Assembly: GCF_000384215.1 (NCBI RefSeq)
Contig: NZ_KB913032.1
Location: 395,020-459,019, forward strand
Reading direction: 5' to 3'
Length of the DNA: 64,000 nucleotides
From: Amycolatopsis alba DSM 44262
GTDB taxonomy: Bacteria > Actinomycetota > Actinomycetes > Mycobacteriales > Pseudonocardiaceae
Both the position numbers and the translations under genes were made by a program. The notes beneath the pieces were generated by a model. It did not search any database. It was not told the DNA's origin and saw only the letters and a list, made by a program, of their open reading frames with translations. How positions within the stretch are numbered: position 1 is the first letter of the stretch; every line of letters starts with the position of its first letter. Shown here one piece after another: positions 40,644 to 64,000 of this stretch.

Positions 40644-41629
40644 GCCGCCACGGCCCCGGTTTCCTCGGTCTCCGGCTTGTCGGCCGGCTTGGGCAGGGTC
40701 GTGACCTCGGCCGACTTCGCCTGCTCGGCCTCCCACTTCTCGGTGGCCTTCTTGGAGAAGTGCAGACCCCACAGGAACATGCCGCGGATGAGGCAGACCA
40801 GCGCGGTCGCCAGGAACAGGCCGTAGGCGACGTGCACGATCATGAAGAATCCGTACGCCAGCGCCACCCCCGAACCGAACAGGACCTGCGACGCGGGCTT
40901 CGACGGCGTCGTGCCGGGGTCGGTGACCATGTAGTTCGTGTAGAGCACGAACGCCACCCCGGTCATCATCCCGAGCGCGCCGGGGATCGCGGTGTCGAAC
41001 ACCAGGCCACGGATGATCGCCTGGAGCGCGAAGGTGATCAGCCAGGCGCCGATCAGCCACATCCGCTGGGTCAGCATCGCGTTGAGCACGGTGCCCGAGA
41101 TCATGATGATGCCGACGATCAGCCAGCCGACCCACGAGTCGACCTGCTCGGTGAAGTGGTACGGCGGGGCGATGCTCGCCCATGGGAACACCAGCAGGAT
41201 GATCGTGATGCCGAAGTTCGACGGGTTCATGTAGTGGCGGAGCCGTCCCCGCACCGGGGCCTGGAGGACCCACTTGGCGCCGACGGCGACCACGACGCCG
41301 AACATCATGACCAGCACCTGGTCGTTGACGTAGGTCAGCATGTTGAGCGCGAGACCGGTGATGTGCGCCGGGAAGAGGAACTCCACCAGTCCCTTGAAAC
41401 CGTTGCCGCGGAAGCGGACGTCGCGGCCCTGGACGCGGGCCCCGATGATCTCCAGCAAGATCTCCGTCGTGTACGCCGTCGCCAGCGCGATGAACGGATA
41501 GGTGTACGGCTGCTCGAAACCGAGCACGGTGTAACCGATGATGTTGAAGATGGTGATCGAGATGGCGAACCGGCGTAGCGCCGTGATCGTCTTGTTGCTC
41601 TTCGGTGCCGCTAGTGTCTGCTCAGCCAT
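40640..41629 (-). CDS. unbU: Enediyne cassette membrane protein UnbU (E5; NqrB/RnfD-like)
   Basis: A ~329-aa integral membrane protein with about seven to eight helices, related to the NqrB/RnfD family; one clear stretch is GFKGLVEFLFPAHITGLALN and another NPSNFGITIILLVFPW. It is one of the three Unb proteins always found near PKSE in 9- and 10-membered enediyne clusters. Its reaction is unknown; electron transfer or transport has been suggested for such folds. The ATG at 41629 is preferred (AAGGAG ~11 bases upstream); a GTG at 41638 overlaps the UnbV stop. C-terminal ~40 residues are charged and cytosolic. Confidence 0.88.
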   Translation of the reverse strand: MAEQTLAAPKSNKTITALRRFAISITIFNIIGYTVLGFEQPYTYPFIALATAYTTEILLEIIGARVQGRDVRFRGNGFKGLVEFLFPAHITGLALNMLTYVNDQVLVMMFGVVVAVGAKWVLQAPVRGRLRHYMNPSNFGITIILLVFPWASIAPPYHFTEQVDSWVGWLIVGIIMISGTVLNAMLTQRMWLIGAWLITFALQAIIRGLVFDTAIPGALGMMTGVAFVLYTNYMVTDPGTTPSKPASQVLFGSGVALAYGFFMIVHVAYGLFLATALVCLIRGMFLWGLHFSKKATEKWEAEQAKSAEVTTLPKPADKPETEETGAVAA

Positions 41630-41634
41630 GACGG

Positions 41635-43599
41635 TCACTTCTCCTTAGCCTGAGCGCCGAGCTGGAACGTGTGGTTGCCCGGCGTCAGCTGGACTTCCTG
41701 GATGCGGATCTGCCCGGTCAGGTCGCGCCATTGCAGGTGCACCTTCACCGGTCCGGTGACCTTGCCGAGTCCGATCTGGATCTCGTGGCTGCGCTTGCCG
41801 GAGTGCCCGCTGCCGCCGTCGACGCGGTCCATGTACTTCTTGCCGTCGGGGGTGACGACGGTGACCTGCGCGCCGATCGCGGCGGTCCCCGCGGCCTTGA
41901 GCGGGCCGTCGGACGACGCCTTGTCGTGCACCAGCTTCAGGTTCAGGTACGAACCGGAGTCGGGACTGACGTTGTGGTAGAAGATCGGCTGCTCCCACTG
42001 GCGGGCCACGGCGAAGTCGAGCTTGCCGTCACCGTCGGCGTCACCGGTGGCGATACCGCGGGTGGGCACCGGGACCGCGAGACCGAGGCGCGGGGCCAGG
42101 TCGGTGTAGCGGCCGTCGGCGCTCTTGGCCCAGAAGTGCAGGGTGTGGTCGCCGCCGACGTCGTCACCGGCCCGCATGTTCGGCCAGAAGGTCGGGTGCT
42201 TCAGCAGTTCGTCGTTGGACGTCGCCAGTTCCTGCAGCTGCGGCCAGCGGTTGACGTCACCCTTGACGAAACCGGTCGCCTGGGTGATCACCGATTCGCC
42301 ACTGTTGTTGTAGTCGGCGATCTTGACGTCCCAGCCCCAGCCGGACCACGCGGTGCCTGCCTGCGCGCTGCGGTCCACCCACGGCGCCTCGCCGCCCTGC
42401 AGACGGCCGCGCAGATCCGCGGTGTCCTTGGCGGTGTTCATGAACTGGAAGTGGCTTTCCTCGATACCCCACGACGTCGTGATGTTGCTGACGTACAGGT
42501 CGTAGAGACCGTCGTGGTCAAGGTCCGCGAAGTCGACGCCCATGCCCTTGAAGGAGTCGTTGCCGAGCACCTTCGACTTCGGCTCGTTGGCCCCGCGGAT
42601 CCCCTTCACCTCGGCGAACTCGACCTTGCCGGGGCGGGACTTGTTGTACAGCAGGCGGTCGTGCCCGAAGTCGTTGCCGATGTAGAGCTCCGGCAGGTTG
42701 TCGCCGTCGACGTCGGTGGCGCTGGCAGCCAGCGACCAGCCGCCGCGGGCGTCGGCCGGGATGGCCTGGTCGTCGCAGACGAAGGTGGCCGTCGGCTTCG
42801 CACCCTGGGTAGCGCCGGTGAACCGGAAGATGTACTTGCCACCGGCGTTGTCGGCGTGCGACATCGACTTGTTCATCTCGACCCCGCCCTCGACGCGGTC
42901 GTCCAGCACCGCGCTGTCGGGGAAGTAGTTGCCGATGAAGATGTCCTGGTGGCCGTCGCCGTCGAAGTCACCGACCGTCGCGGCGTTGGTGTTCCACAGT
43001 GGACCGGCGTACTCACCGTTCTTGGAGTTGTTGCCCGGCACCAGTTCCACCGGCTCGTAGGCCGACGGCTCCAGCTTGGTCGCGCCCGGCTTCGAGAGGA
43101 ACAGGATCGGGGTGCGGCCCCAGTAGTAGGCCAGCAGGTCGACCCGGCCGTCCTCGTTGAAGTCACCCGGCACACAGCCCATCGGGGCGATGTACTTGCC
43201 CATCGGCAACGGTGCCGAGTCGAGTGCGAACGGCTTGTACCGGTCACCGCCCTTGCCCGGCGTCGGCGTCACGACCACCTGGTCACTGCGCGGGTCCACG
43301 AAGCACAGGTCGTTCGCGAGCTTGTCGCCGTCGAGGTCGTTGACCGCGATCGCGGCGCCCACCGAGGAGATCCAGGCACGGATGTGCTCGTACTCCTTGT
43401 TCACCGTGCGGATCGACTGGCTCTTCGCCGCTTCCGGCAGGGCGATCGTCAGCGGTTCGAACGCGTACTTCGAGGCCATGGTGTCGGCCTCGGCGGTCGA
43501 GACCGTGGGCAGCTGCGCCACCACGAACAGTCCCGACATCAGCAACAGCGCCACGATGCCCGCAAGCTGCTTGCGGAGCCAGCCCAAGGTCGCGGTCAT
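41635..43599 (-). CDS. unbV: Enediyne cassette protein UnbV (E4; ASPIC/UnbV, FG-GAP repeats)
   Basis: A 654-aa protein with an N-terminal signal anchor (MTATLGWLRKQLAGIVALLL with a hydrophobic tail), then repeated FG-GAP/VCBS calcium-binding blades: VNDLDGDKLANDLCFVD, GDFNEDGRVDLLAYYWG, VGDFDGDGHQDIFIGNY, DLDHDGLYDLYVSNI, GDADGDGKLDFAVA. The C-terminal ASPIC/UnbV region (about 560-640) has IGAQVTVVTPDGKKYMDRVD and SHEIQIGLGK. It is predicted outside the membrane as a beta-propeller. Conserved in all enediyne warhead cassettes, function not established. GGAGG before the ATG, which overlaps the UnbL stop (ATGA). Confidence 0.92.
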   Translation of the reverse strand: MTATLGWLRKQLAGIVALLLMSGLFVVAQLPTVSTAEADTMASKYAFEPLTIALPEAAKSQSIRTVNKEYEHIRAWISSVGAAIAVNDLDGDKLANDLCFVDPRSDQVVVTPTPGKGGDRYKPFALDSAPLPMGKYIAPMGCVPGDFNEDGRVDLLAYYWGRTPILFLSKPGATKLEPSAYEPVELVPGNNSKNGEYAGPLWNTNAATVGDFDGDGHQDIFIGNYFPDSAVLDDRVEGGVEMNKSMSHADNAGGKYIFRFTGATQGAKPTATFVCDDQAIPADARGGWSLAASATDVDGDNLPELYIGNDFGHDRLLYNKSRPGKVEFAEVKGIRGANEPKSKVLGNDSFKGMGVDFADLDHDGLYDLYVSNITTSWGIEESHFQFMNTAKDTADLRGRLQGGEAPWVDRSAQAGTAWSGWGWDVKIADYNNSGESVITQATGFVKGDVNRWPQLQELATSNDELLKHPTFWPNMRAGDDVGGDHTLHFWAKSADGRYTDLAPRLGLAVPVPTRGIATGDADGDGKLDFAVARQWEQPIFYHNVSPDSGSYLNLKLVHDKASSDGPLKAAGTAAIGAQVTVVTPDGKKYMDRVDGGSGHSGKRSHEIQIGLGKVTGPVKVHLQWRDLTGQIRIQEVQLTPGNHTFQLGAQAKEK

Positions 43600-44573
43600 T
43601 TACCTGCACCTCCAGAAGTGAGTACCTCGGCGGCGATGCGCTGTCGCCAGGTTTCGAAATGCGGGAGTTCGCCGTCGACCACGACAGCCGGGCGCACTTC
43701 CTGCGTGATGGCCGCGGCGCGCTCGGCCGGCAGCCCGCAGATCGCCTGCGTGGCGACCTCCGTCTCGGGGATCAGCAGCCCGGCGCGGACGCGGGCTTCG
43801 GCGGCGAAAGCGCTGCCCTGTGCCAGGTTTCCCCGGTGCTCACCGGCGAACTCGGCCAGCTTCAGCAGTTCGTCGGAGGTGACACCGCACGCGTAGGTCG
43901 AGGCGAGCCCGACACCGGCGTAGAGATCTCCGTGACGCTGCTTGGGGAATCTCGCGATCGCGTCGGTGACCAGATCGACGTCGGTGCCGCAGATGAACCA
44001 CAGCGCCCGGCCGATGCCCTGGTCGATCGCCCGCAGCGAGTAACCGTTGTTTCCGGCGGGCCAGGTGAAGTTCGGGTCCTGGAACTGGCCGTCGATGTAC
44101 TTGGCGGTCTTGAAATAGGCCTGGTGGAAGCCGTACCCGTCGAGCACCAGCCAGCGCAGCAACGGGTCGAAGTCCTCGGCCGACGGCCAGCGGAAGCGCG
44201 GCAGCCGCGCCATCGCCCAGCCGACGCCGACGTAGATGATGTAGTCGTGTTTCTCGCCGGGACCGGCGAGGAAGTCCGCGATGTGCCCGCGCCCCCCGCC
44301 GGGCAGGCCGTCCAGCATTCCGTAACCCATTCCCGCGCCTTCGTAGGCGAAGCCGCGGTATTTCACCGGAATGCGTTCGAGCCATTCTTCTGCCTGGTCG
44401 ACGGAACGCGCCTCGACCGCGTGCGCGTAGCCGAGCAGGAATTTCTCGCCGACGGTCTCCAGCAATTCTTGAGCGGCCGGGCTCTTCTTGTGAAAACCGC
44501 GCTTGTCCAGCGACGTCTCGGAGACGTCCGGAGTGATCATGCGACGCCTGATCGTGCGCCAACCATTGCCCAA
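43596..44573 (-). CDS. unbL: Enediyne cassette protein UnbL (E3; DUF1702)
   Basis: A 325-aa DUF1702 protein: MGNGWRTIRRR, ITPDVSETSLDKRGFHKKS, RGFAYEGAGMGYGMLDGLPG, IIYVGVGWAMARLPRFRW and RAIDQGIGRALWFICGTD. Start TTG at 44573 chosen because homologues begin MG..RRLRRR and GGGGGAG lies about eight bases upstream. First gene of the coupled operon unbL-unbV-unbU-P450-DUF5987-GMC-CMD. Reaction unknown. A paralogue lies at 14584-15579 outside the cluster core. Confidence 0.92.
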   Translation of the reverse strand: MGNGWRTIRRRMITPDVSETSLDKRGFHKKSPAAQELLETVGEKFLLGYAHAVEARSVDQAEEWLERIPVKYRGFAYEGAGMGYGMLDGLPGGGRGHIADFLAGPGEKHDYIIYVGVGWAMARLPRFRWPSAEDFDPLLRWLVLDGYGFHQAYFKTAKYIDGQFQDPNFTWPAGNNGYSLRAIDQGIGRALWFICGTDVDLVTDAIARFPKQRHGDLYAGVGLASTYACGVTSDELLKLAEFAGEHRGNLAQGSAFAAEARVRAGLLIPETEVATQAICGLPAERAAAITQEVRPAVVVDGELPHFETWRQRIAAEVLTSGGAGK

Positions 44574-44740: not shown

Positions 44741-44795
44741 GTCCGTGAAGGCCTCCTTGAGGGACTCAGAGTCCCTCAAGGAGGCCTTCACGGAC
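44741..44795 (-). repeat. 27-bp-arm perfect palindrome after the right AraC gene
   Basis: Perfect 27-bp arms around a central A (44768); the same sequence as the palindrome at 26956-27014 except that the central base is inverted. It lies 28 bases after the AraC stop on the minus strand, so it can terminate AraC transcripts before unbL. The remaining part of 44574-44740 is the promoter region of unbL; CTCAC-N10-GTGAG (44620-44650 area) is the only other symmetric element seen. Confidence 0.85.
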
Positions 44796-44822: not shown

Positions 44823-45725
44823 TCAGGCCGCCGCGCGAAGGTAGTCGGGAGCGGGCATGGTCATCCGGTTGCCGGTGGAGGTCGGGCCGCCGGCGAGGGT
44901 GATCGCCATCGGCGCGTCGGTCGGCCGCGGCGTGCGCATCGGCATCCGCAGGTGGACCCGGCCGTAGCGGGTGATGTCGACGCGGCCGGGCAGGGTGCCG
45001 ACGGAGAACGAGGAGGCCGCGGTCCCGGCGGCGTGCTCGGCGACCGCGATGACGGTCCACCGGCCCTCGGGCACGTTTTGGATCTCGATGTCCGCCGACA
45101 GGACGTTCGCCCTGCCGCCGAACGCGACCGGGCCGCACTGCGGGATCGACTCGGCGAACAGTCCGATGAGGACACTCGCCGGGCCTGCCCCGCGCGGGGT
45201 CTCGACCCGCACGCTGATCGTGCCGGTGCCGCTGCGCATCGTCGCGCAGCCCATTCCGGCGCTGTGCAAGGCCTCCAGGGTCGGCAGCCGCTGGAAATGC
45301 GGGGCCAGCGCGACGAGCAGTTCGCCGACCTCGGGGTCGCGGTACTGGGTCGGGGTCATCCCGACCGCACGGGTGAAGCGGCTGGTGAACGTGCCGACAC
45401 TGCTGTAGCCGACGCTGCACACGATGTCCGACACCGTCAGCGACGTCGTCAGCAGCAGCCGTTTCGCTTCGAAGAGCCGGATCGCGGTGAGATACCGGCC
45501 GGGGGTCACGCCGGTCGCCTTGGTGAAGATCCGCGAGAAGTGGAACGGGCTGACGAAGACTTCCGATGCCAGGTCGCCCAAGGTGATCGGGTCGAAGTAC
45601 CGCGCGTGCATCGATGAGATGGCCTGCAGGACCGCGGGTTGCAGGGGTGACGCCGGCTCGGGGAGCCGACCGGGTTCGATGACGCCTTTCTCGTTCGCCG
45701 CCGTGGCGACTGTTCGTAGCTGCAT
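44823..45725 (-). CDS. AraC-family regulator with C-terminal beta domain (right copy)
   Basis: A 300-aa regulator: helix-turn-helix pair at residues about 40-135 (VFVSPFHFSRIFTKATGVTP, VGYSSVGTFTSRFTRAVGMT), then a beta-rich C-terminal domain with VLIGLFAESIPQCGPV and VPEGRWTVIAVAEHA. It matches the left copy at 13788-14531 in order and in the second domain. ATG 45725 follows GAGG. It sits upstream of unbL on the same strand, separated by a palindromic terminator. Likely cluster regulator; the ligand is unknown. Confidence 0.83.
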   Translation of the reverse strand: MQLRTVATAANEKGVIEPGRLPEPASPLQPAVLQAISSMHARYFDPITLGDLASEVFVSPFHFSRIFTKATGVTPGRYLTAIRLFEAKRLLLTTSLTVSDIVCSVGYSSVGTFTSRFTRAVGMTPTQYRDPEVGELLVALAPHFQRLPTLEALHSAGMGCATMRSGTGTISVRVETPRGAGPASVLIGLFAESIPQCGPVAFGGRANVLSADIEIQNVPEGRWTVIAVAEHAAGTAASSFSVGTLPGRVDITRYGRVHLRMPMRTPRPTDAPMAITLAGGPTSTGNRMTMPAPDYLRAAA

Positions 45726-45937
45726 CAGACCAACCTCGGATTCGCTGTCGCTTTTCCTCTGCACGCCAGCAAACGCGTCATCGATTTCGGAGCACTCGAC
45801 ACGCGATCGAGATGGACCATGTACTGGTACTACTCAGCCCTGCGCGATCGGCGAACGGTCGAAGCGACGGCACGAACGGAGAACCGCTGTCGGGGTGAGT
45901 AGTCGACCAAACGCGCGTCAAGGTGACCGTGGAGATC

Positions 45938-45986
45938 CGTGAAGGCCTCCTTGCCTACCCTGAAGGTAGGGAAGGAGGCCTTCACG
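45938..45986. repeat. Palindrome related to the GTGAAGGCCTCCTT family
   Basis: CGTGAAGGCCTCCTT (45938-45952) is repeated inversely as AAGGAGGCCTTCACG (45972-45986). The loop holds a second stem CCTACC-N5-GGTAGG. The outer part is identical to the arms of the two other palindromes, the inside is different: the family has a conserved outer and a variable inner stem. It lies in the 400-base gap between AraC and the SagB gene. Confidence 0.8.
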
Positions 45987-46019
45987 ACCTTGGTCGATGC
46001 CGAGGCGAGGGCATGTCGC

Positions 46020-46062
46020 GAAAGCCACTTTCGCAACCTTCAACGTTGCGAAAGTGGCTTTC
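46020..46062. repeat. 18-bp-arm palindrome downstream of the SagB gene
   Basis: GAAAGCCACTTTCGCAAC (46020-46037) and its inverse (46045-46062) around CTTCAAC. Different sequence from the neighbouring palindrome, same size class. It lies 61 bases after the SagB stop (46124) and may terminate the TOMM operon. A direct repeat GACCAAACGCGCG flanks the two palindromes at 45904-45916 and 46110-46122. Confidence 0.8.
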
Positions 46063-46123
46063 ACAACGCGCCCTCGTCCCGAAGCCGTCCACCTGGGACG
46101 CAAGCAGCCGACCAAACGCGCGG

Positions 46124-47593
46124 TCAGGCAGGCAGGTCCAGTACGCACTCGCCCACGCCGACCTCGGCGGGCCATTCGAGCTTCAGCGCGCGGTCCACCC
46201 GGTCACCGGCGTCGACCGGGACGGCGTGCGCGGCCAGTCCCATCGCGCGGGCGACGAGGTACAGGGTCTGTTGCAGCGCGCCGACATGCGCCAGCGTCGT
46301 GGCGTACGCGCCGCCGCCGAGCACCGACGCCATCCGCGGCATCCGCGCGGTCACCGTGATCAGCGCCGAGGGCCGCCGGTGGTTGCCGCCGCCGATCATC
46401 GCCATGTCGAGCATCGCGTCGAGATCGGACTCGTCGTCGTTGACCAGGCTGAGCCGGTGTTCGAGCGGATCGTAGTGGTAGATCCCGCGATCCACTCCCG
46501 AGCAACGGTTCACCGAGACGTACAACTCGAGCTCGTACAGGCACGCGACGCTGAAATACGGCCGCTGCGACGCGCTGTGCGCCGGGCCGTTGGGAAAGTG
46601 TGCCGGCCCGATCGACCGGATCCGCGCGCCGCGGAACAGGAATTCGCCGATCTGCTCGGCGGACAGCACGCCCTCGGTGAACTCGGGGCAGGTGTGATCG
46701 TTCTCCAGCAACGCCGTCAGCGTCGGATCGGTCGCCGCGCGCTCGGTCAGATCCGGCCGGTACAGCGAATAGACCGGTCCCTCGCCGGTGGAAGCCTTGA
46801 CCACCGGAGGTCTTCCGAGCCCAGGCAGATCAGCCGGTCCACCGGGCCGCCAGGTGCGGCTCGTGGTGTGGAAGAGCAGTTCGTCCGGCGACCACAGGCT
46901 CAGTTCCGGGTCTTCGTCCTCGGCGAACCGGCCCTCCTCCCCGGCGACCTGGACGACGCCGGCGGCGACCAGGTAGGACACGATCGCCCCGACCACCCCT
47001 GGCCCGATCCCGGTCGTGGCCACGATGTCCCCGACCGACTTCGCCGTCGCGAGCGTCGCCGCGACGTGCACGGCCCACGGTTGGTACAGCACGACGCGGT
47101 ACCGCGCGGACGGCGACTCCAGCCCCATCCCGTAGGCGTCGGAACGCAGGGAACTGAAGCGGGACAACCGGATCGGCCGCGAGGCCGGGATCTCCACCGG
47201 GACGAACACCGGCGCGAGCGCCACCGGGATCACCGACAGCAAAGGTCCCCTGCCGTCGGCGAGACCGAGCGAACGCACCACGGAACCGCCGAGTTCCTTG
47301 AGCGCCTGCCGCAGCGCGTCGGCGCCTTCGGCCGTCCAGCTCAACTCGCCTTCGAGGTCGGGCTCGCGCTCGACCGGTTCCCACGAGGACGTCACGTTCG
47401 CCAGCGAGACCGGCCCCAGAGCCATCCGCCGCAACGATTCCCGGACCAGCGGCTCCGCACGATCGAAGTCGTACTCCCCCCACCGAGTGACGACCACCAA
47501 GGAGCCGTCCTCACCGATTTCGACAAGACTGTCGTCGGTGAGCGACCACAAGGGGATCGTCTCGGCCACACCGCCGGGGGGATCTGTCCTCAC
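46124..47593 (-). CDS. SagB-type azoline dehydrogenase (ThcOx-like nitroreductase fold)
   Basis: A 489-aa SagB/ThcOx protein. The N-terminal half (1-240) contains a small winged-helix region (SVGDIVATTGIGPGVVGAIV). The C-terminal nitroreductase domain (about 300-489) has FLFRGARIR, RPYFSVACLYELELYVSVNR, GIYHYDPLEHRLSLV and the end QTLYLVARAMGLAAHAVPVD. It oxidises azolines to azoles with FMN in TOMM peptides. The usual RxYPSGGAxYxLE loop is altered (PYFSVACLYELE), so flavin contact may differ. GTG 47593 with GGAG, 18 bases after the YcaO gene: one operon. Confidence 0.86.
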   Translation of the reverse strand: MRTDPPGGVAETIPLWSLTDDSLVEIGEDGSLVVVTRWGEYDFDRAEPLVRESLRRMALGPVSLANVTSSWEPVEREPDLEGELSWTAEGADALRQALKELGGSVVRSLGLADGRGPLLSVIPVALAPVFVPVEIPASRPIRLSRFSSLRSDAYGMGLESPSARYRVVLYQPWAVHVAATLATAKSVGDIVATTGIGPGVVGAIVSYLVAAGVVQVAGEEGRFAEDEDPELSLWSPDELLFHTTSRTWRPGGPADLPGLGRPPVVKASTGEGPVYSLYRPDLTERAATDPTLTALLENDHTCPEFTEGVLSAEQIGEFLFRGARIRSIGPAHFPNGPAHSASQRPYFSVACLYELELYVSVNRCSGVDRGIYHYDPLEHRLSLVNDDESDLDAMLDMAMIGGGNHRRPSALITVTARMPRMASVLGGGAYATTLAHVGALQQTLYLVARAMGLAAHAVPVDAGDRVDRALKLEWPAEVGVGECVLDLPA

Positions 47594-47611
47594 TTGTCGC
47601 TCCAGCCGGAT

Positions 47612-49888
47612 CTACAAGAACATGGGGAAGGGGTTCAGCCGGTCGTACGGGGTCGGTTCGGCGAGCCTGCCCAAGCGCACCGGCACGTCGAACAGCCGGC
47701 CTGGGGCGAAGCGGCTCCAGAACGGGCGCAGCCCCGGAACGACCACCCTGACCACCGGAAGATCGATGTCGGGCCTGGTCTGATCCAGCACGAGCGTCTC
47801 CATCCCCAACGCGGAAAGCTTGCGTACCAAGCATTCCACGTCGTCCCGTACGTCGGGCCGCCGGACGAACTTGAAGTCCGCGGCCCGTTTCGCCGAACGC
47901 CCCGGCGCCGGCAGCAGATACGGCTGGTTGGCGACCGTGGCGTGTCGGAGCCACCGCGCCGCGTCGGGATCGTCGAGTTCGACGTCGTTCGCGAGCACCG
48001 CCGGGATCATCTGGTTGAGCTCGCTGACCGCCCTCCGCAGCGCCGTCCTGGGATCCAGGTGGGCGCCGAACCCCATCATGACGTTCTCGCGCGGTCCGGC
48101 GATACTCCTGGACAGCGCGACCATCACCGGGATACCGAGATCCGCGGTCACGTCGAGGACCCACAGTTCCCGGCCTGCCCGCGCGTACTGGCCGACCATC
48201 TCCTCGGCCCACGGGTCGTCGAACGACGCGATGTCGACGCCGGGCACGGGAAGCCGGTTGTACCACCACATCGCGACGGCGTCGCGTTCGATGAGTTCGA
48301 GAAGCCCTTGCAGGACGGCGTCTTCGATACTGCTGCCTGCCGCGCAGCCGTTGGAGTCCGCGCGCATCCCGGTGATCCCGCACTCCGGCGGCACACCGTA
48401 GTAGAGGTACGCCGTCGGCATCAGCTTCCGGCGCTGCTGCGAAAGCGACCACAGCGGCGTCCAGTCGACGGGCTTCCCGTCGTCGAACCGGTCGGGGACG
48501 TGCTGGAAGATCGCGTGCCTGGCGTTCCATTCGTCGCGGTTCTCGTACTGGCGCTCGTCGAAGAGCATGCACGAGTTCGGGTGGACGGCGTCCTCGCCGA
48601 GCGCGCGGAAGGTGTCACGGATCCGCAGTTCGTCGCCCTGGTAGTTCGCCGAGAACCGTTCGATCGCCTCGCACAGCGCGCCGACCTCGGCGTCGATCGG
48701 GCTCGCGCCCTTGCCGCCGTTGTCCCCGCGCAGCCCGGCCTGCAGCCCTGCCTCACCGCGGACGCGGCGCGCGACGTTCAGCCCGGAGCGGTACGCGTTC
48801 ACGAACGCCGGCGCCCTCGGGTCGCGGGCGATCTCCTTGACGATGCCGGTGACCGGGCTGACCAGGTGGCCGTAGCGGTCGAGCACCTCGACCGGGGTGA
48901 GCGTCCGGTGCCCGCCGCCGCCCGACGTCGCCTTCTTGGCCTCCCGCAGCACGACCGGCTCGGCCGTGCGCGCGGCGACGATCCCTTCGTCACCGCATTC
49001 CGGGCACTGCGGGCGCCGCCGCAGTTCGTGCAGCCGCCCCTGCAGGTCGAGGGTGTCCAGGATCCACACGGCCTGCTGCCCCGGATAGCGGTGTCCCGCC
49101 AGCCATTTGGACGCTTCGAGGGAGATCAGGTGCGACGCGGCCGCGGTCAGCGGCGGCACGGCGGGGATCGGGAACGAGGCCGGTCCGTCGTGCCCGAGGA
49201 CCTCCTGCACGCAGGCTTCCGCGTGCCGGTGCCCCCACAGCCGGTTGGTCAGGCAGTGCCAGCAGCCGGACCGGCCGGGCTGCATGATCGGGCCGATCCA
49301 CACCTGCGAACCCGACGGCCTGGCCAGCAGCCACGGCCGCCCGGTGCGCCGGTGTTCGGCGTCGATCCCGGCCAGCCTCGGGTCGAGGTAGTCGTCGCAC
49401 AGCACGATGGCCAGTTCGGCAGCCGTGTCGACCACTTCGATCCCGCTCGCGCTGAGCGCGTTCTCCACCTGGGAGGTGTCGACGCCGCGGCCGATCGTGG
49501 TCAGGCTAGCCGTGGCGGGCTTCTGACGGCAGGCCACCGCGGACGCGTCGAGACCGCACGCGTCCCAATAGGCGAGCGCGCGTTCGTCCCCGCTGAGTTC
49601 GTCGGGGACGCGGACGGTGACCAGGCCCGCCTCGACCAGCCTGGCGAGGACACCGGTGACCTGTTCGGCGCTCATCCCCTCCGGGCAGGCGGAGAGCAGT
49701 CCGTCGAGGTCACGGGTGCCGTCGAGCAGGGCCGCCACCGACGCGACCTGCGCGCCGCGCATCGCGATGACACCCTGTTCCGAGAACAGGTAAGCGCCGT
49801 TGCCCTCGCTGATCTCCGCGCGCAGATGCCGTTTGAAGCCCAGACCGCCGCTGATCGAGCCGGACCCGTTCGACACTGCCTCGCGCAT
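47612..49888 (-). CDS. TOMM cyclodehydratase: E1-like ocin-ThiF domain fused to YcaO
   Basis: A 758-aa fusion. Residues ~15-95 are a PqqD-like RiPP recognition element (FKRHLRAEISEGNGAYLFSE, ALLDGTRDLDGLL). About 100-320 is the E1-like domain with two CxxC zinc pairs (GCWHCLTN, CPECGDE). From ~360 YcaO begins, with SPIDAEVGALCEAIERFSAN and AGSSIEDAVLQGLLELIERD for ATP/Mg, and ends in LNPFPMFL, in place of the usual proline-rich tail. It makes azolines from Cys/Ser/Thr using ATP. Start ATG 49888, with GGGGG upstream. No peptide gene adjoins it. It diverges from a SARP gene. Confidence 0.92.
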   Translation of the reverse strand: MREAVSNGSGSISGGLGFKRHLRAEISEGNGAYLFSEQGVIAMRGAQVASVAALLDGTRDLDGLLSACPEGMSAEQVTGVLARLVEAGLVTVRVPDELSGDERALAYWDACGLDASAVACRQKPATASLTTIGRGVDTSQVENALSASGIEVVDTAAELAIVLCDDYLDPRLAGIDAEHRRTGRPWLLARPSGSQVWIGPIMQPGRSGCWHCLTNRLWGHRHAEACVQEVLGHDGPASFPIPAVPPLTAAASHLISLEASKWLAGHRYPGQQAVWILDTLDLQGRLHELRRRPQCPECGDEGIVAARTAEPVVLREAKKATSGGGGHRTLTPVEVLDRYGHLVSPVTGIVKEIARDPRAPAFVNAYRSGLNVARRVRGEAGLQAGLRGDNGGKGASPIDAEVGALCEAIERFSANYQGDELRIRDTFRALGEDAVHPNSCMLFDERQYENRDEWNARHAIFQHVPDRFDDGKPVDWTPLWSLSQQRRKLMPTAYLYYGVPPECGITGMRADSNGCAAGSSIEDAVLQGLLELIERDAVAMWWYNRLPVPGVDIASFDDPWAEEMVGQYARAGRELWVLDVTADLGIPVMVALSRSIAGPRENVMMGFGAHLDPRTALRRAVSELNQMIPAVLANDVELDDPDAARWLRHATVANQPYLLPAPGRSAKRAADFKFVRRPDVRDDVECLVRKLSALGMETLVLDQTRPDIDLPVVRVVVPGLRPFWSRFAPGRLFDVPVRLGRLAEPTPYDRLNPFPMFL

Positions 49889-49977: not shown

Positions 49978-50110
49978 AACCCACGTTTTTCCGGGACGCA
50001 CGCACGCGGGACCTGGTGGACGGCTCACTGGCCCGGTGCCCCGCCGCTCTGTCACTGTCGAAGCACTGGGAAACAGGTCACGACGCGTATCGAGCTGGAG
50101 GGCGCTTGCG

Positions 50111-50950
50111 ATGTACCCCGGATCACGAGTAGCGGACACGCACCACGGCTCGGCACCCAACCCGATTCCGGCCGCGTCCGCAAGCCCCGTCCGCTTCACC
50201 CTGCTCGGCCCGCTCGAACTCATGCGGGACGGCATCGACTACGCGCCGACGACGCCGAAGCTGCTGCAGGTGCTGGCCATGCTGGTGATGAGCCCCGGCA
50301 AGATCGTGCACATCGACTCGATCGTCCAGGAACTGTGGGCGAACGACCCGCCGCGCAGCGTCCGCACCACGATGCACACCTACGTCTACCAGCTGCGCCG
50401 GTGCATCGACGAGAACGACCTCGCCCCGTACGGCGAGACCATGCTGGCGACGAAACCGCCGGGGTACCTGTTCCGGATCGAACCGGACCAGGTGGACGTC
50501 TTCGAGTTCCAGGCCCTGCAGAAGAAGGGCCGCGAACTGCAGCTGCGGGGCGAGCACACCGAGGCGGCGAAGGCCTTCCGGTCCGCGCTCGACCTGTGGT
50601 CCGGGCCGCCGCTGGCGAACGTCCACTGTGGACCGGTGCTGTCGGCGTACGCGGTCGACCTCGTCGAACAGCGGCGCAGCACCCTGCACCTGCGGATCGA
50701 GGCGGACATCGCGGCCGGGATGCGGCACGAGCTGATCGGCGAACTGCGCTCCCTGGTCACCGCGAACCCGCTGGACGAGGCCCTGCACGGCCAGCTGATC
50801 CGGGTGCTCGGCCGCAGCGGGCGCCGATCCGACGCGCTCGCGACCTACCGTCAGGTGCGGTCGAGGCTCAACAATGAACTGGGCGTCGAACCCTGCGACG
50901 AACTGCAGGTCCTGCACCACGACCTGCTTTCCGAGGGCGAACCCGCGTGA
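50111..50950 (+). CDS. SARP-family transcriptional activator (right copy)
   Basis: A 279-aa small SARP with the same layout as the left copy: winged helix (FTLLGPLELMRDGIDYAPTT, SVRTTMHTYVYQLRRCID) and activation domain (FRSALDLWSGPPLANVHCGP, ANPLDEALHGQLIRVLGRSG). Many stretches are identical to the protein at 16788-17609, showing recent duplication. GGAGGG lies nine bases before ATG 50111. It diverges from the YcaO-SagB operon and is coupled to HxlR by overlapping or close starts. Probable activator of the TOMM and/or enediyne operons. Confidence 0.9.
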   Translation: MYPGSRVADTHHGSAPNPIPAASASPVRFTLLGPLELMRDGIDYAPTTPKLLQVLAMLVMSPGKIVHIDSIVQELWANDPPRSVRTTMHTYVYQLRRCIDENDLAPYGETMLATKPPGYLFRIEPDQVDVFEFQALQKKGRELQLRGEHTEAAKAFRSALDLWSGPPLANVHCGPVLSAYAVDLVEQRRSTLHLRIEADIAAGMRHELIGELRSLVTANPLDEALHGQLIRVLGRSGRRSDALATYRQVRSRLNNELGVEPCDELQVLHHDLLSEGEPA

Positions 50951-50991
50951 AACCCACTGCTGCCACGGCAACCGAAAGTGAGGATCGGCGG

Positions 50992-51675
50992 ATGAGTCGT
51001 ACCTATGGGCAGTTCTGCGGCCTGGCCCGCGCGCTGGAGATCATCGGCGAACGCTGGTCGCTGCTGATCGTCCGTGACCTCGTCCTCGGCCCGAAGCGGT
51101 TCACCGAACTGCAGGCGGGGCTGCCGAAGATCCCGGCGAGCACGCTGTCCGCGCGGCTCAACGAACTCGAACAGTCCGGTGTGCTCCGCCGCCGCCTGCT
51201 CCCCCAGCTCGACGCCGCGGTGATCTACGAACTCACCGAGTACGGCAGCGAGCTCGACCAGATCGTGCTGGACCTCGGCCTCTGGGGCGCGCGGTCGCTC
51301 GGCCGCCCGGCCCCCGAGGACGTCTTCACCCTGGACGCGGCGATCCTCTCGCTGTACACGACCTTCCAGAGCGAGAAGGCCAAGGGCGTCCAGGTCACCT
51401 ACGAACTGCACTACCCCGGCGGGATGGTCCTGCACGCGATCGTCGAGGACGGCGCGCTCAAGGTCGCGGACGGCGCGCATCCCGGTGCCGACGCGATCAT
51501 CGAACCGCTGGGCCCGTACATCAAGGACCTGCTGAGCGGGGAACTCACCGCCGACGACGCGATGCGGACCGGAAAGGTCCGGGTCGAAGGCGCCTTCGAA
51601 TACCTGGAACTGTTCACCGGGCTGTTCCACATCCCCGCCGCACCCCAGGTGTCACCCGGAATCGTCATCCGCTGA
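50992..51675 (+). CDS. HxlR-family winged-helix regulator with SCP2-like C-terminal domain (right copy)
   Basis: A 227-aa protein with the N-terminal motif RTYGQFCGLARALEIIGERW, winged helix LNELEQSGVLRRRLLPQLDA and a C-terminal SCP2-like half (AAILSLYTTFQSEKAKGVQV). Close paralogue of 17656-18342; positions and lengths match almost throughout. ATG 50992 with GAGG fits the left copy; a GTG at 50947 would overlap the SARP stop. A hairpin terminator follows the gene. Confidence 0.86.
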   Translation: MSRTYGQFCGLARALEIIGERWSLLIVRDLVLGPKRFTELQAGLPKIPASTLSARLNELEQSGVLRRRLLPQLDAAVIYELTEYGSELDQIVLDLGLWGARSLGRPAPEDVFTLDAAILSLYTTFQSEKAKGVQVTYELHYPGGMVLHAIVEDGALKVADGAHPGADAIIEPLGPYIKDLLSGELTADDAMRTGKVRVEGAFEYLELFTGLFHIPAAPQVSPGIVIR

Positions 51676-51853: not shown

Positions 51854-52432
51854 ATGGCCGCACTCGATCCCCACCGTCCCGGTCTGCTCGCCTCGCTCAA
51901 CGGGAAATACCACCGCGCGGCACTCAACATCTTCACGCTCGTCGTGCTGGCCCACTGGGCGGAACACCTCGTGCAGGCGTTCCAGATCTACGTGCTCGGC
52001 TGGAAGACCTCGGACGCCCGTGGCGTGCTCGGCATCCCGTTCCCCAAGCTGATCAGCTCCGAGTGGCTGCACTACGGCTACGCGATCGTCATGCTGGTCT
52101 TCCTGTTCGCCCTGCGCAAGGGCTTCGCCGGCCGCTCGCGGCAGTGGTGGAACCTGGCGCTCGGCCTGCAGTTCTGGCACCACATCGAGCATCTGCTCCT
52201 GCTGATCCAGGCGCAGACCGGCTGGCGCCTCGGCGGCGGCACCGCGCCGAGCAGCATCATCCAGCTGTTCATCCCGCGGGTGGAACTGCACCTGTTCTAC
52301 AACACGATCGTCACCATCCCGATGATCATCGCGATGATCGTGCACCGGAAGGCGCCCGCCGCCGAACGAGAGCTGACCGGCTGCACGTGTTCGCCCGAAA
52401 GCCGGCGTGAGCTGGCCACCGCCGCATCGTGA
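51854..52432 (+). CDS. His-rich membrane protein upstream of CopC-CopD
   Basis: 192 residues with about four hydrophobic helices. Histidines cluster within or next to them: HWAEHLVQAF, FWHHIEHLLLL and VELHLFYN. These spacings could bind copper or iron. A Cys pair, GCTCSPES, is near the end. I do not recognise a named family. AAGGAG precedes ATG 51854. Its stop overlaps the CopC-CopD start by four bases, so the two act together; a metal-related role fits. Confidence 0.7.
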   Translation: MAALDPHRPGLLASLNGKYHRAALNIFTLVVLAHWAEHLVQAFQIYVLGWKTSDARGVLGIPFPKLISSEWLHYGYAIVMLVFLFALRKGFAGRSRQWWNLALGLQFWHHIEHLLLLIQAQTGWRLGGGTAPSSIIQLFIPRVELHLFYNTIVTIPMIIAMIVHRKAPAAERELTGCTCSPESRRELATAAS

Positions 52433-53763
52433 CCAGGAGGCTCTTCGCTCTCCTGGCCTTCGTGGCGGCCTGGCTGGGGGTCGCGGTGTTCGCCGCGGCC
52501 CCGGCCTCGGCCCACGTCGAACTCCTCGGCTCGAATCCCGCCGACGGCGCCCGGCTCACCTCGGCGCCGCCTCTGATCTCGATCACCCTTTCGGAGAACA
52601 TCGGCATCCAGCCGAACTCGATCAAGGTCGTCGATCAGCAAGGCACGAACGTCGTGTCCGGACCGGTGTTCCAGCCCGGTGACGTCGCCGAACAGGTCGC
52701 CGTCAAACTCGAGCCCGATCTTCCCGACGGCAGTTACCTCGTGGAGTACGCCTTCGTCTCCACCGACTCGCATCCGGTGCGCGGCACGTTCGCCTTCGTG
52801 ATCGGCACCGGCCCCCTGATCACCTCGGCGGGCGCGGTGTCCGCCTCCACCGGCACCGATCCGGTCACCGACGCGTTGTTCACCACCTTCCGCTGGGGCT
52901 CGTTCGGCGGTGTCGCGCTGCTGGGTGGGATGGTGTTCGTGCTGGTCTGCCGTCCGGGCGGCCGGACGGACCCGGCGGCGCGGAAGCTGCTCACCGCGGG
53001 CCTGTGGCTGTCCGGCGTTACGGCCGTGGCCGGGTTCCTGCTGCAAGGCCCGTACGTCGCGGGCCGCGGCGCGGGTTCGGTCTTCGACCCGGCGCTGATC
53101 GAGGCGACCCTGCGGGTGGCGTACGGGAAGCTCCTGCTCCTGCGCCTGGCCGCGATCGTCGCGCTCGCCGTGATCGTGCGACGGCTGCTGATGGACGACC
53201 TGCCGGACAGGCTGAAGTCGCGTTACGAGAACCTCGGCATCGCGGCCGGGTTCCTCGTGATGCTGAGCTTCTCCGCGACCGGGCACGCGGTGGCCGACAA
53301 GATCATGTTCCTCTCGGTCAGCGCCGACCTCGCGCATTTCGGCGCGATGGCCGTCTGGGTCGGCGGGCTGATCCAGCTGGCCGTGCTCCTGCGCGGCAAG
53401 TACTCGGCGTCGGAGGCGGAACCGGCACTGGCGCGGTTCCATCCGATCGCCACCTGGTCGATCGTGATCATGGTGGTCAGCGGCGCGTACCTGGGCTTCC
53501 GGCTCGTCCCGTCGGTGGAGGCGCTCTGGACGTCGGCCTACGGCATCGTCTTCCTGCTGAAGCTGACCGGGTTCGCCGCGTTGCTGCTGGTCGCGAACCT
53601 GAGCCGGAACGCGGTGCGCCGCGGGATCTCCGGCCGCGGCGGCACCGGCGTCGTGACCGCCGACCTGCGGAAACTGCGGGTCAGCGTCGGGGTCGAGGTG
53701 CTGATCGTGGCCGTGGTGCTCGCGCTGGCCGCGGCGTTGTCCTCGATGTCCCCGACCGGTTGA
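52429..53763 (+). CDS. CopC-CopD fusion copper protein
   Basis: 444 residues. Signal peptide 1-~27 (VFAAAPASA cut), and the mature CopC domain starts with His (AHVELLGSNPADG), which in CopC gives the copper-binding N-terminal His. A second His is in TDSHPVRGTF. From ~140 to the end follow eight or so membrane helices of CopD, with ATGHAVAD, LAHFGAMAVWVGGL and FHPIATWSI. It binds copper outside and moves it across or to cuproenzymes. GTG 52429 overlaps the upstream gene stop. Confidence 0.88.
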   Translation: MTRRLFALLAFVAAWLGVAVFAAAPASAHVELLGSNPADGARLTSAPPLISITLSENIGIQPNSIKVVDQQGTNVVSGPVFQPGDVAEQVAVKLEPDLPDGSYLVEYAFVSTDSHPVRGTFAFVIGTGPLITSAGAVSASTGTDPVTDALFTTFRWGSFGGVALLGGMVFVLVCRPGGRTDPAARKLLTAGLWLSGVTAVAGFLLQGPYVAGRGAGSVFDPALIEATLRVAYGKLLLLRLAAIVALAVIVRRLLMDDLPDRLKSRYENLGIAAGFLVMLSFSATGHAVADKIMFLSVSADLAHFGAMAVWVGGLIQLAVLLRGKYSASEAEPALARFHPIATWSIVIMVVSGAYLGFRLVPSVEALWTSAYGIVFLLKLTGFAALLLVANLSRNAVRRGISGRGGTGVVTADLRKLRVSVGVEVLIVAVVLALAAALSSMSPTG

Positions 53764-54459
53764 TCAGCGTTCGACAGGCTCATCCGGCGGGGTGAACGGC
53801 CCCCAGGTGAAGGCCCGGAGCCACGGCTCGGGATCGCCCAGCCAGTCCAAGGCGGCGATCTGGGCCGGGCTCCGGCGCCCGGCGAGCGACCGGTAGACGT
53901 CCACCGGCGCGCCCGAGAGCACCGCGGCGACCGGTTCGGTGCCGGCGATCCAGGTCGCGCCCTCGATTTCGATCCGCATCCCTGGCAGCCCGTGCTTGCC
54001 CAGCGAGGCGCCGAGGCCGCTGACGAGCACTTCGAAACCGCGCAGCCAGGCCGCGTGCGCCTCGGGCGGCGGAGCGCCGAGCGCGTACCGGAGATCGAGT
54101 TCGTGGGTGAAGGCGTCCATCACCATGATGTCGCCGCGGCTCTTGCCTTCGCCGTCGGCGGCGAGGAGCGCGTCGGCCTCGGGTCCGCGTTCGGTCCAGA
54201 GCCGCAGCAGTTCGGCGGCCGACGCCGTCTCCGGAATCGGGCAGGCCGCACCCCCGAACCGGGTGATCACCCGGTCGCAGATTTCGGTCAGATGCGCGAG
54301 CAGGTCCCGGACGGTCCACTGTGGACAAGCCGGGACGGTCCGTTCCCCCGCGCCGGCGTGGTCGGCGAGCAAGATCGAGATGTTCTCTCTGACCTGCCGA
54401 TATCCTTCGGCCGCTGTCGCCGTATTCCAGCCAGGGACCCGAATTCGGCTGCTCGTCAC
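53764..54459 (-). CDS. Maleylpyruvate isomerase-family mycothiol-dependent enzyme
   Basis: A 231-aa DinB-fold protein with VPACPQWTVRDLLAHLTEIC, an MDAFTHELDLRYAL helix and a C-terminal TWGPFTPPD. The mycothiol-dependent maleylpyruvate isomerase family has His residues equal to those in LLAHL and FTHELD for metal. Substrate not known. GTG 54459 with GGAGG seven bases upstream sets the start; the longer frame lacks a site. Convergent with the CopC-CopD gene. Confidence 0.8.
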   Translation of the reverse strand: MTSSRIRVPGWNTATAAEGYRQVRENISILLADHAGAGERTVPACPQWTVRDLLAHLTEICDRVITRFGGAACPIPETASAAELLRLWTERGPEADALLAADGEGKSRGDIMVMDAFTHELDLRYALGAPPPEAHAAWLRGFEVLVSGLGASLGKHGLPGMRIEIEGATWIAGTEPVAAVLSGAPVDVYRSLAGRRSPAQIAALDWLGDPEPWLRAFTWGPFTPPDEPVER

Positions 54460-54686
54460 GCGGCCACCTCCAATAAGGGTGAAACGATGGTCGTCCATTC
54501 TCCCACCGGGGGAAGGATGCCCCTTCTTCCCGTTTGCTCCCGACCGTTCGGCGCAAGATCACCCACCCGTGACGCGTGTCGTCGGGGCTTCAGGCACACT
54601 GGACGGGGAAAGCCCCCGTGCCGCAACAACTCTGCTGTTCGACAAAGCACGCACCGGTGACAGATCGCCCACTGTGGAGGTGACCA

Positions 54687-55349
54687 ATGGAGATGCCCGG
54701 CTTCGATCTGGCGTGGCGTGGCTTCAACCGCGCACAGGTCCGGGAATTCGTTCGCGAGGTCGAAACCGAGTTGCGCCGAGTCGCCGCCGAACGCGACGAA
54801 GCGATCCGGCGCGGGGAGGCGCTCGCCGCCCGGCTCACCGCCACCCAAGAGGAAAACCGGGAACTGAAGAACAGCGTCGACCGGATCAGCCGCGTGCCGA
54901 TCGCCCCGGACGCGCTCCAGGAGCGGTCACGCCGGATGCTCGAACTCACCCGCGAGGAAGCCGACGACATCACCGCGCGCGCCGCCGAGGAAGCCGCCAA
55001 GGCCGAGGCGGAACGGAAACGGATCGCCGAAGACTTCGAGCGCGCCATGACGCTGCGCCGGGCCGAGGCGATGCGGGCGCTCGCCGCGCGGGACGAAGCC
55101 TCGCAGGCACGGGCGCGAAAACTGCTCGACGACGCCGCCGAGAAGGGCGAGCGCCTGGTCGCCGAAGCGCGGCAGAAGGCCGACGTGGCCCTCGGCCTGC
55201 GCGATGACGTGCTGAAACAGCTGCTCGGCTGCCGGGATCTGCTCGCGGAAGCCGGTACGGTCCTGGCGGTCACCGCGGAACCGGAAGTGCCCGTTCAGCG
55301 CCGGAGCAGGCCCGAGGCCCGCACCGGCGCCGAAGCGGCCGCCACCTAG
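54687..55349 (+). CDS. DivIVA-domain coiled-coil protein
   Basis: 220 residues. N-terminal DivIVA-like segment FDLAWRGFNRAQVREFVREV, then a long charged coiled coil (30-190; repeated RRVAAERDEAIR, AEEAAKAEAERKRIAEDF). It lacks the membrane-insertion extras of a full Wag31, and is more like the small DivIVA/SepIVA-like scaffolds of the cell pole or septum. GGAGG six bases before ATG 54687. Function not specified by context. Confidence 0.78.
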   Translation: MEMPGFDLAWRGFNRAQVREFVREVETELRRVAAERDEAIRRGEALAARLTATQEENRELKNSVDRISRVPIAPDALQERSRRMLELTREEADDITARAAEEAAKAEAERKRIAEDFERAMTLRRAEAMRALAARDEASQARARKLLDDAAEKGERLVAEARQKADVALGLRDDVLKQLLGCRDLLAEAGTVLAVTAEPEVPVQRRSRPEARTGAEAAAT

Positions 55350-55352
55350 GCG

Positions 55353-55715
55353 TTAGGCGTCGTCCCCGGACGAATACACCACCGGCCGGACCTCCATCGC
55401 GTTGATGTGCGCGTCCGGGACCTGGCCCGCGATCTCGATCGCGCGCTCCTTGCTGTCGCATTCGACCAGGTAGAAGCCGGCCAGGTACTCCTTCGACTCG
55501 GCGAACGGGCCGTCGGTGACCACCGGGACGCCGTCACGCACCCGGACCACCGTGCTCTCCTTCGGCTCCCCCAGCGCCTGCGTCCCCAGCAGTTCGCCGC
55601 TCTCGGTGAGCTTCTTCATGAAAGGGTCGATGCGGGCGACCACCTCGTTGCGCTCCTCCTCGGGGAGAGCGTCCCAGGCGGCGGGGTTCATCGTGATCAT
55701 GATCATGTACTTCAT
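55353..55715 (-). CDS. YciI-family protein
   Basis: 120 residues: MKYMIMITMNPAAWDALP, GTQALGEPKESTVVR, and the signature DGPFAESKEYLAGFYLVECD of the DGPF/YCII family. Family members are small dimeric alpha-beta barrel proteins, some accessory to ECF sigma factors, with catalytic His/Asp in true YciI; role here unknown. AGGAGG precedes the ATG. Confidence 0.88.
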   Translation of the reverse strand: MKYMIMITMNPAAWDALPEEERNEVVARIDPFMKKLTESGELLGTQALGEPKESTVVRVRDGVPVVTDGPFAESKEYLAGFYLVECDSKERAIEIAGQVPDAHINAMEVRPVVYSSGDDA

Positions 55716-55826
55716 CGGGGTTCCTCCTGGTCATCCGGCCGGGTGCCCGGCCACTCACGCAGGAGTCGGAGCCGCCGGATCGTCCTCGACATCCTGGCAC
55801 CCGCGAATTCCACCCGCCCGGAGTGG

Positions 55827-55843
55827 ATACGTGGGGAGGGTAT
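55827..55843 (+). promoter_or_regulatory. CsoR-like operator overlapping the csoR promoter
   Basis: ATACGTGGGGAGGGTAT: an AT-flanked G-rich pseudo-palindrome resembling CsoR boxes, 40 bases before the csoR start, overlapping TATAGT as a -10. Suggests that CsoR represses itself until copper binds. Confidence 0.5.
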
Positions 55844-55883
55844 AGTGGGCGACGGCAGGGAACCACGAGAGAGCGGGTGCGGG

Positions 55884-56165
55884 ATGACGGGATACGGCAG
55901 CGAGCGGGAGGCCTACCTCAAGCGCCTGCGCCGGATCGAGGGGCAGGTCCGCGGTTTGCAGCGGATGGTCGAAGAGGACAAGTACTGCATCGACATCCTG
56001 ACCCAGGTGTCCGCGGCCACCAAGGCGCTGCAGTCGTTCTCCCTCGAACTGCTGGACGAGCACCTCGCCACCTGCGTGGTCCAGGCCGCCGCCGCGGGCG
56101 GTGAAGAGGCCGACCTCAAGGTCCGGGAGGCGTCCGACGCCATCGCCCGGCTTGTCCGCTCCTGA
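55884..56165 (+). CDS. csoR: CsoR-family copper-sensing repressor
   Basis: 93 residues, DUF156/CsoR fold, all helical. The C-H-C copper ligand set is visible: Cys in YCIDILTQV, His and Cys in DEHLATCVV. Core sequence RLRRIEGQVRGLQRMVEEDK is canonical. It releases from DNA upon Cu(I). The stop is a base from the copA stop (convergent). Two CsoR-like boxes lie at 55827 and 58780. Confidence 0.9.
   Translation: MTGYGSEREAYLKRLRRIEGQVRGLQRMVEEDKYCIDILTQVSAATKALQSFSLELLDEHLATCVVQAAAAGGEEADLKVREASDAIARLVRS

Positions 56166-60171: not shown

Positions 60172-64000
<3,829 letters not shown>

Follow-up and report, generated by a model that had tools for sequence, protein, structure and literature searches.

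We analysed a 64,000-nucleotide stretch of the Amycolatopsis alba DSM 44262 genome (contig NZ_KB913032.1, positions 395,020 to 459,019; hereafter the window), in which genes for a YcaO heterocyclase and a SagB-type protein lie beside an enediyne gene cluster. A first-pass annotation had described the pair as the azole-forming module of a ribosomally synthesised and post-translationally modified peptide (RiPP), attached to the enediyne genes and sharing their regulators. The features that bear on the function of the pair are the following, in window coordinates:

47612-49888, minus strand: YcaO fusion of 758 aa, with a leader-binding part, an E1-like part holding two CxxC pairs, and the YcaO heterocyclase
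46124-47593, minus strand: SagB/ThcOx-type protein without canonical flavin motifs
50013-50061, minus strand: promoter element of about 50 bp upstream of ycaO, common to the araC-unbL promoters of related loci
22540-22731, minus strand: precursor peptide gene (63 aa; leader motif LVIDRFDHW; core with CFTGACC; profile score 86.1 bits)
21699-22307, minus strand: LuxR-type response regulator, starting about 230 nt past the precursor
19347-21692, plus strand: tandem membrane histidine kinase of 781 aa, made of two fused HisKA_3 kinases

The YcaO fusion scored 152.6 bits against TIGR03882 (cut-off 36.9), 268.8 against TIGR03604 (cut-off 219.25) and 354.7 against PF02624, as computed on the longer open reading frame (ORF) that reaches 50005. 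Among solved structures, TruD aligned to residues 16-756 with 568 bits, LynD with 543 and MusD with 517, and the cysteine pairs CWHC and CPEC lined up with those of TruD. The GKG, ExxER, GDE, SNG and ERD motifs and both CxxC pairs were intact in 26 of 26 aligned homologues, and the eleven named records at 92-98% identity all come from Amycolatopsis (including oliviviridis, azurea, coloradensis, keratiniphila, orientalis and regifaucium). The sagB ORF lies 18 nt from that of ycaO; its product exceeded the TIGR03605 cut-off (110.8 against 78.4 bits) and matched the ThcOx family PF22767, which places it in the family, and it aligned to the CyaGox structures 5lq4 and 8pz5 with 142 bits. These matches indicate that the YcaO fusion and SagB are cyanobactin-type peptide enzymes, and they agree with the fused architecture and the 18-base spacing given by the first-pass annotation.

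The neighbouring enediyne cassette and its regulators comprise:

30126-35945, minus strand: enediyne polyketide synthase PKSE, 1939 aa
29684-30124, minus strand: enediyne thioesterase (TE)
41635-43599, minus strand: UnbV, with FG-GAP and UnbV_ASPIC domains
43596-44573, minus strand: UnbL (DUF1702)
40640-41638, minus strand: UnbU-like membrane protein, assigned by position
44823-45764, minus strand: AraC regulator between sagB and unbL
50036-50950, plus strand: ORF of a SARP regulator, with a probable later start near 50111
50947-51675, plus strand: HxlR regulator

The best match of the TE was 4i4j (253 bits), which we take to be SgcE10 of C-1027, with CalE7 at 202 and DynE7 at 126 bits; the acyltransferase region of PKSE matched DynE8 (188 bits). 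The membrane protein at 40640-41638 had no match in Pfam or NCBIfam, and UnbU is the name that we assume for it. PKSE together with UnbL, UnbV, UnbU and an enediyne TE indicates that the cassette is real, as had been claimed. The unbL ORF begins about 1.55 kb past the end of SagB, with araC in between, close to the 1.5 kb first reported. The regulators flanking the enediyne genes are paralogue pairs with 59% (SARP), 66% (HxlR) and 41% (AraC) identity, in keeping with the earlier observation of the same regulator types on both sides.

Across 199 genomes, the window's own included, a YcaO locus at 58% identity or above was found in 61, one in each. SagB directly followed YcaO in all 61; UnbV was encoded on the same strand no more than 20 kb downstream in 59, and TE lay 19-80 kb downstream in 59. 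The two exceptions to enediyne linkage, G007 and G050, are both split draft assemblies, and in G007 the assembly break falls between araC and unbL. Linkage in 59 of 61 loci at YcaO identities down to 58% rules out a chance neighbourhood or a recent transfer, and the co-occurrence suspected from a single genome thus recurs in other Amycolatopsis. Linked loci also include other genera (G082 and G088, and G090 at 52% YcaO identity). PKSE, whose presence was judged only in assembled stretches, was found in 10 of 16 contigs with YcaO and UnbV (in G046 in pieces); four of the six others (G062, G066, G053 and G082) have a TE 70-80 kb from ycaO, past the end of the stretch, and two (G011 and G090) are short stretches. 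Pairwise distances correlated with r = 0.51 for YcaO and UnbV (n = 15), 0.88 for YcaO and SagB and 0.92 for UnbV and UnbU, all without species-tree control.

Among 28 YcaO loci at 50-57% identity, eight had a SagB match and one a UnbV match; in G139, which had none for UnbV, genes for UnbL, DUF5987 and GMC adjoin. Weaker loci that were tabulated (37-46%) had SagB in 16 of 16 cases and UnbV in 0 of 16, and 44 of 104 UnbV matches had no YcaO at 50% identity or above within 60 kb (two of these 44 being split assemblies). Because unlinked YcaO loci and YcaO-less UnbV loci both occur, each cassette can, by these counts, stand alone, and enediyne genes accompany the window's YcaO clade in nearly every case. 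The case that the first-pass annotation had named as refuting, a YcaO-SagB block without PKSE and with its own precursor, is therefore represented by distant cassettes at 44-57% identity, but not by the window's clade with its nearly constant linkage. G139, from another family, carries YcaO without detected SagB together with a precursor, SARP, histidine kinase, LuxR, AraC, UnbL, DUF5987 and GMC genes, and the RiPP-enediyne combination seems to occur in a further family too, there without SagB. Genus-wide linkage of the peptide enzymes, the precursor and the PKSE genes would suit a peptide-enediyne hybrid, in which the modified peptide is attached to the enediyne as a building block; such a product is quite improbable given that precursor-bearing cassettes exist without adjoining enediyne genes, that the 44 UnbV loci above do without a nearby YcaO, and that the ORFs scanned included no recognisable condensing enzyme to join the two.

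To follow the promoter element across loci, we used a position weight matrix (PWM) built from 12 ycaO promoters alone. In the loci that we call group B, inserted genes of approximately 10-18 kb separate sagB from the araC-unbL block, and there the PWM matched before araC-unbL in 20 of 20 loci with 24.7-40.4 bits and gave no other match above 20 bits in 288,020 bases. The 26 other contigs (1,208,502 bases) held 18 matches above 20 bits, 13 of which precede ycaO or an adjacent precursor (12 being the training instances); the remaining five precede araC-unbL in G059, G046, G005, G064 and G009. The element was thus seen before araC-unbL in all 25 sampled loci of the separated-block type. In the window, a pattern derived from such promoters, including the window's own, matched the element once, with no match expected in shuffles. 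Together with the linkage, these results suggest that the peptide genes are built into the enediyne genes in Amycolatopsis and are probably switched on together with them. Two other patterns were set aside: an A-rich element upstream of ycaO (TGAAAAA...GCACTGG) was dropped because it matched only 5 of 26 contigs, and the PWM superseded a more stringent shared-element pattern that matched 7 of 26.

No small ORF beside ycaO in the window is suitable as a precursor. In relatives with compact loci, a small gene overlaps or closely precedes the ycaO start (mostly 51-67 aa, with 82 and 97 aa in two), and the leader motif of these ycaO-adjacent precursors, for example LVIDRFDQW, then located the window's member about 25 kb away, beyond PKSE, between a CMD-domain gene and the LuxR/kinase pair. 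A profile made from 16 members gave 95 matches in 69 of the 199 genomes. The precursor lies on the contig and strand of YcaO in 59 of 61 loci (in G002 and G007 it is on a different contig): 5.5-7.7 kb downstream of ycaO in 29, at 26-31 kb in 20 including the window, immediately upstream in eight and approximately 5 kb upstream in two. A protein search returned 90 members at E values up to 0.01, and the leader pattern was present in 89 of them; all 89 cores hold at least one Cys, Ser or Thr, and 16 have no Cys. Members with a source name are called hypothetical or uncharacterised, and those with an organism come from Amycolatopsis or Actinophytocola. Searches gave no match in NCBIfam (two members, E up to 1) or Pfam (five members, E up to 10), and the precursor family is undescribed. 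The pooled ratio of non-synonymous to synonymous polymorphism (pN/pS) was 0.28, with 0.37 in the leader and 0.22 in the core, for 16 equal-length genes out of 18 extracted from 19 genomes of what we call group A, indicating that the precursor is under purifying selection.

Among species of one genus, the precursor core of approximately 25 residues differs widely. This variation argues against a peptide that binds the enediyne and shields the producer in place of a chromoprotein, as does the occurrence of cassettes without adjoining enediyne genes; such a shield, which would account for the absence of a neocarzinostatin-family gene from the cluster, we regard as very improbable. The sole genome match to that family lies 2.2 Mb from the enediyne cluster (G000:C1:2661966-2662286, minus strand) and approximately 18 kb from another YcaO gene (C1:2642850-2643884). 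Neither of the two roles first offered for the peptide, as a part joined to the enediyne or as a protection against it, has gained support.

Two orphan precursor copies were seen elsewhere in the genome, with no kinase match near either. The copy at G000:C1:7364484-7364669 (minus strand) has a core, RCFTGACCVVPPLAEAK, almost identical to that of the window, and lies near what is presumably a katG/furA-like pair; in the copy at G000:C1:667747-667941 (minus strand), the profile match runs through a TGA. The second YcaO loci of G065 and G003 have a precursor just before YcaO and no SagB match, and in the G065 precursor there a core-like unit of the CRxEQPV type recurs about four times, much as in RiPPs with multiple cores.

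The kinase and LuxR genes were found within 7.5 kb of the precursor in all 42 loci with a precursor match, out of 43 scanned; the other locus, G040, had no precursor match at that threshold. Where the precursor is parted from ycaO, it lies 128-429 nt from the LuxR gene. The pair also adjoins RiPP cassettes in stretches that hold no enediyne genes (G069, G109, G108, G105 and G040), of which only G069 lacks UnbV or TE matches genome-wide, and it had no match in 20-kb stretches around five of five RiPP-less enediyne loci. Hydropathy above the threshold marked three membrane segments in the first half of the kinase and six in the second, and the pattern used for the G box matched in the second half only.

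We compared the identity of the core with that of the kinase parts in 22 of 24 group B loci, two having been dropped for lacking two kinase motifs in one open frame. The correlation was r = 0.86 for the N-terminal membrane domain, 0.80 for the second membrane domain, 0.79 for the first kinase half and 0.52 for the second; given the mean identity of 11 other locus proteins, the partial r values were 0.81, 0.72, 0.71 and 0.23, respectively. The highest partial r among the 11 non-kinase proteins was 0.52, and the LuxR regulator, which lies between precursor and kinase, gave 0.51. The N-terminal membrane domain kept 0.77 once similar cores were removed (17 loci); for the other kinase, beside SagB, the value was 0.08 when controlled for its own kinase part (21 loci). 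The N-terminal membrane domain is the kinase part farthest from the precursor, so an effect of mere linkage should run in the opposite order. These sequence comparisons suggest that the peptide is a signal read by the sensor protein encoded beside it, and on balance we consider it somewhat probable that the peptide is a species-variable signal for the adjacent kinase, wired to the enediyne genes.

Linkage and a shared promoter element require no signalling, however, and both would fit a second, co-regulated RiPP product, for example an antibacterial peptide, with a kinase and LuxR that do no more than regulate the locus in response to some other stimulus. The cassettes without adjoining enediyne genes, and the orphan precursors whose nearly identical cores sit away from any kinase, also favour such a product. 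We find it unlikely, because covariation with the core is far higher for the membrane domain of the neighbouring tandem kinase than for other locus proteins or the second kinase, the precursor travels with LuxR and kinase rather than with ycaO, and the ORFs scanned yielded no recognisable exporter or immunity gene. The second, co-regulated compound envisaged by the first-pass annotation would on this evidence be a co-regulated and probably signalling peptide.

The term azole-forming has become doubtful for the linked clade. RRSxRxY, PYP and LKH hold the residues that bind flavin mononucleotide (FMN) in the nitroreductase fold. The corresponding CyaGox residues (RRSxRxY, PYPSGG and LKH) were replaced in 41 of 41 enediyne-linked SagB proteins examined, from the 61 loci, and the first flavin site reads Cys-Pro in 40 of these and Gly-Pro in G023. 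Six of seven alignable unlinked relatives retain the RxS start and PYP; at the third site, five of the six have Lys and G105 has Arg, and three of the six carry His instead of the second Arg in the first motif. The seventh, G109, is also degenerate, and G013 was too partial for scoring. PF00881 scores were 17.5-26.2 bits in five linked SagB proteins, compared to 45.8-62.6 in five unlinked ones. In ThcOx, FMN is located in the C-terminal domain only, according to the part of PMC5108345 that was available. Because the linked SagB proteins have lost the flavin-binding motifs, an azoline is a likelier product than an azole. An ordinary azole-forming unit of the thiazole/oxazole-modified microcin (TOMM) type, in which SagB binds flavin through other residues and oxidises azolines, would explain why SagB is kept in 61 of 61 loci and exceeds the TIGR03605 cut-off, and why one of the five linked proteins (G088) still exceeds that of PF00881 (26.2 against 23.5 bits); we judge it improbable given the replacement of the RRS, PYP and Lys motifs throughout the linked set examined and the retention of the first two by most unlinked relatives. 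As the degenerate SagB shows, a YcaO-SagB pair alone does not predict azoles. A second SagB paralogue, at G064:C3:1116742-1118169, shares its contig with the first at a distance of approximately 40 kb and reads AAP at the site of the Cys-Pro motif.

From the sequences of the enzymes and the precursor family, their linkage, the shared element, the association and covariation of precursor, kinase and LuxR, and the loss of the SagB flavin motifs, we infer heterocycle formation, processing, export, sensing and the direction of control as follows. The block would be the enzyme half of a cyanobactin-type RiPP system inside a conserved Amycolatopsis enediyne cluster. The clamp region of the YcaO fusion would bind the leader motif LVIDRFDxW, and YcaO would cyclise Cys (or Ser/Thr) residues of the variable core to azolines, with SagB assisting, though not as a canonical flavin oxidase. 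Release of the core would fall to a protease and an exporter, neither of which was found among the ORFs scanned, and the membrane domain of the tandem kinase would sense the product and act via the LuxR regulator. The same promoter element would drive the peptide enzymes and the enediyne genes together, and such common expression would thus make the peptide a signal within a population or among kin that is coupled to enediyne production. The complete picture, with an azoline peptide made by YcaO as a species-specific pheromone, a tandem membrane kinase that reads it, a shared element that wires the circuit to enediyne biosynthesis across Amycolatopsis, and SagB as a helper that has lost its flavin and gained a conserved Cys-Pro motif, is one that we put forward tentatively.

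Several results weigh against a signalling peptide of this kind. The core hardly varies within group A. Neither a protease nor a dedicated exporter was found among the 38 window ORFs scanned against Pfam, which are not all of its ORFs. The PWM gave no match above 20 bits before ycaO in G046, G009, G088 and G082, before araC-unbL in the linked lineages with a smaller gap (G062, G066, G053, G011, G088, G082 and G076), before the window's precursor, or in the unlinked loci tested. The multi-pass kinase and regulator that stand beside the peptide gene at 42 of 42 loci are missing from other precursor loci: the kinase had no match in 13 of 13 stretches around orphan precursors of group A genomes, and three of five YcaO-precursor loci without SagB by tblastn (G110, G065 and G003) had neither kinase nor LuxR matches, the other two (the second locus of G105, and G139) having both. 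The covariation permutations are inflated by shared ancestry, and their counts were not taken as proof because several non-kinase control genes pass too. Part of the covariation may be block inheritance, since the first kinase half (0.71) and the second membrane domain (0.72) are nearly as high as the N-terminal domain and LuxR reaches 0.51.

Other features of the window were recorded. A further DUF1702/UnbL gene at 14584-15582 is 38% identical to the one at 43596-44573, and in the gene maps of many related clusters a tandem pair of such genes precedes unbV. Intergenic inverted repeats surround araC at 44741-44795 (27 nt, 100%), 45938-45986 (22 nt, 95%) and 46001-46081 (40 nt, 83%). Beyond the HxlR gene, 51854-58583 holds copper-type genes, presumably for a 192-aa membrane protein, CopC/CopD-like and CsoR-like proteins and a P-type ATPase, in a position conserved in several group A and B contigs. 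A ribosomal RNA operon occupies 59965-64000 on the minus strand (5S, 23S and 16S, the last cut by the window end); many draft contigs of relatives stop approximately 10 kb upstream of ycaO, as would be expected if they had the same operon at that point.

If the proposal is true, a heterocyclised RiPP would be the signal for its cognate kinase, and the related loci would offer a natural set of ligand-receptor pairs for study. An enediyne cluster present in nearly the whole genus, as far as the genomes searched show, would gain a candidate trigger in the form of a named peptide, receptor and promoter element. The observation behind the first-pass annotation was right and understated; it had missed the precursor, the promoter element and the loss of the SagB flavin motifs. 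Its view that a RiPP heterocyclisation module and an enediyne cassette under common regulators form an undescribed combination is supported provisionally: none is described in the titles and abstract openings of the matches listed. The portions of the papers available report a Streptomyces strain whose thiopeptide and enediyne clusters are separate (PMC6306032), another enediyne, the amycolamycins (PMC8037709), and an enediyne cluster in Amycolatopsis with no azole mentioned in that portion (PMC11237095); the available text of PMC5181780 contains neither Amycolatopsis nor a cyclodehydratase, and that of PMC5984834 neither an enediyne nor YcaO.

Compared to the cyanobactin enzymes TruD, LynD and MusD with ThcOx or CyaGox, the locus has the same full-length collinear YcaO fusion, clamp, zinc cysteines and ThcOx-type partner. 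It differs in the leader motif LVIDRFDxW, in a SagB without flavin motifs and in being embedded in an enediyne cluster, and no PatA/PatG subtilisin-type protease or macrocyclase was found among the 38 Pfam-scanned ORFs, to which the search for it was confined. Linear azol(in)e-containing peptides (SagBCD/TOMM) likewise combine a fused C-D enzyme, a B protein and a small precursor; here, in contrast, the precursor members tested matched no NCBIfam or Pfam family, oxidation is doubtful, and the precursor appears coupled to a two-component system. As in known enediyne cassettes, PKSE, TE, UnbL, UnbV, UnbU and associated oxidoreductases are present, and by its TE the cluster is nearest to the nine-membered C-1027 type, whereas here RiPP genes share a promoter element and the cluster has no gene for a neocarzinostatin-type apoprotein. 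Agr and Com are peptide quorum-sensing systems with polytopic kinases. The locus shares with them a short peptide, a multi-pass kinase, an adjacent response regulator and a variable core matched to a variable membrane domain, and it would differ from them in a peptide made by a YcaO heterocyclase, a tandem HisKA_3 fusion kinase, a LuxR-type partner and an actinomycete host.

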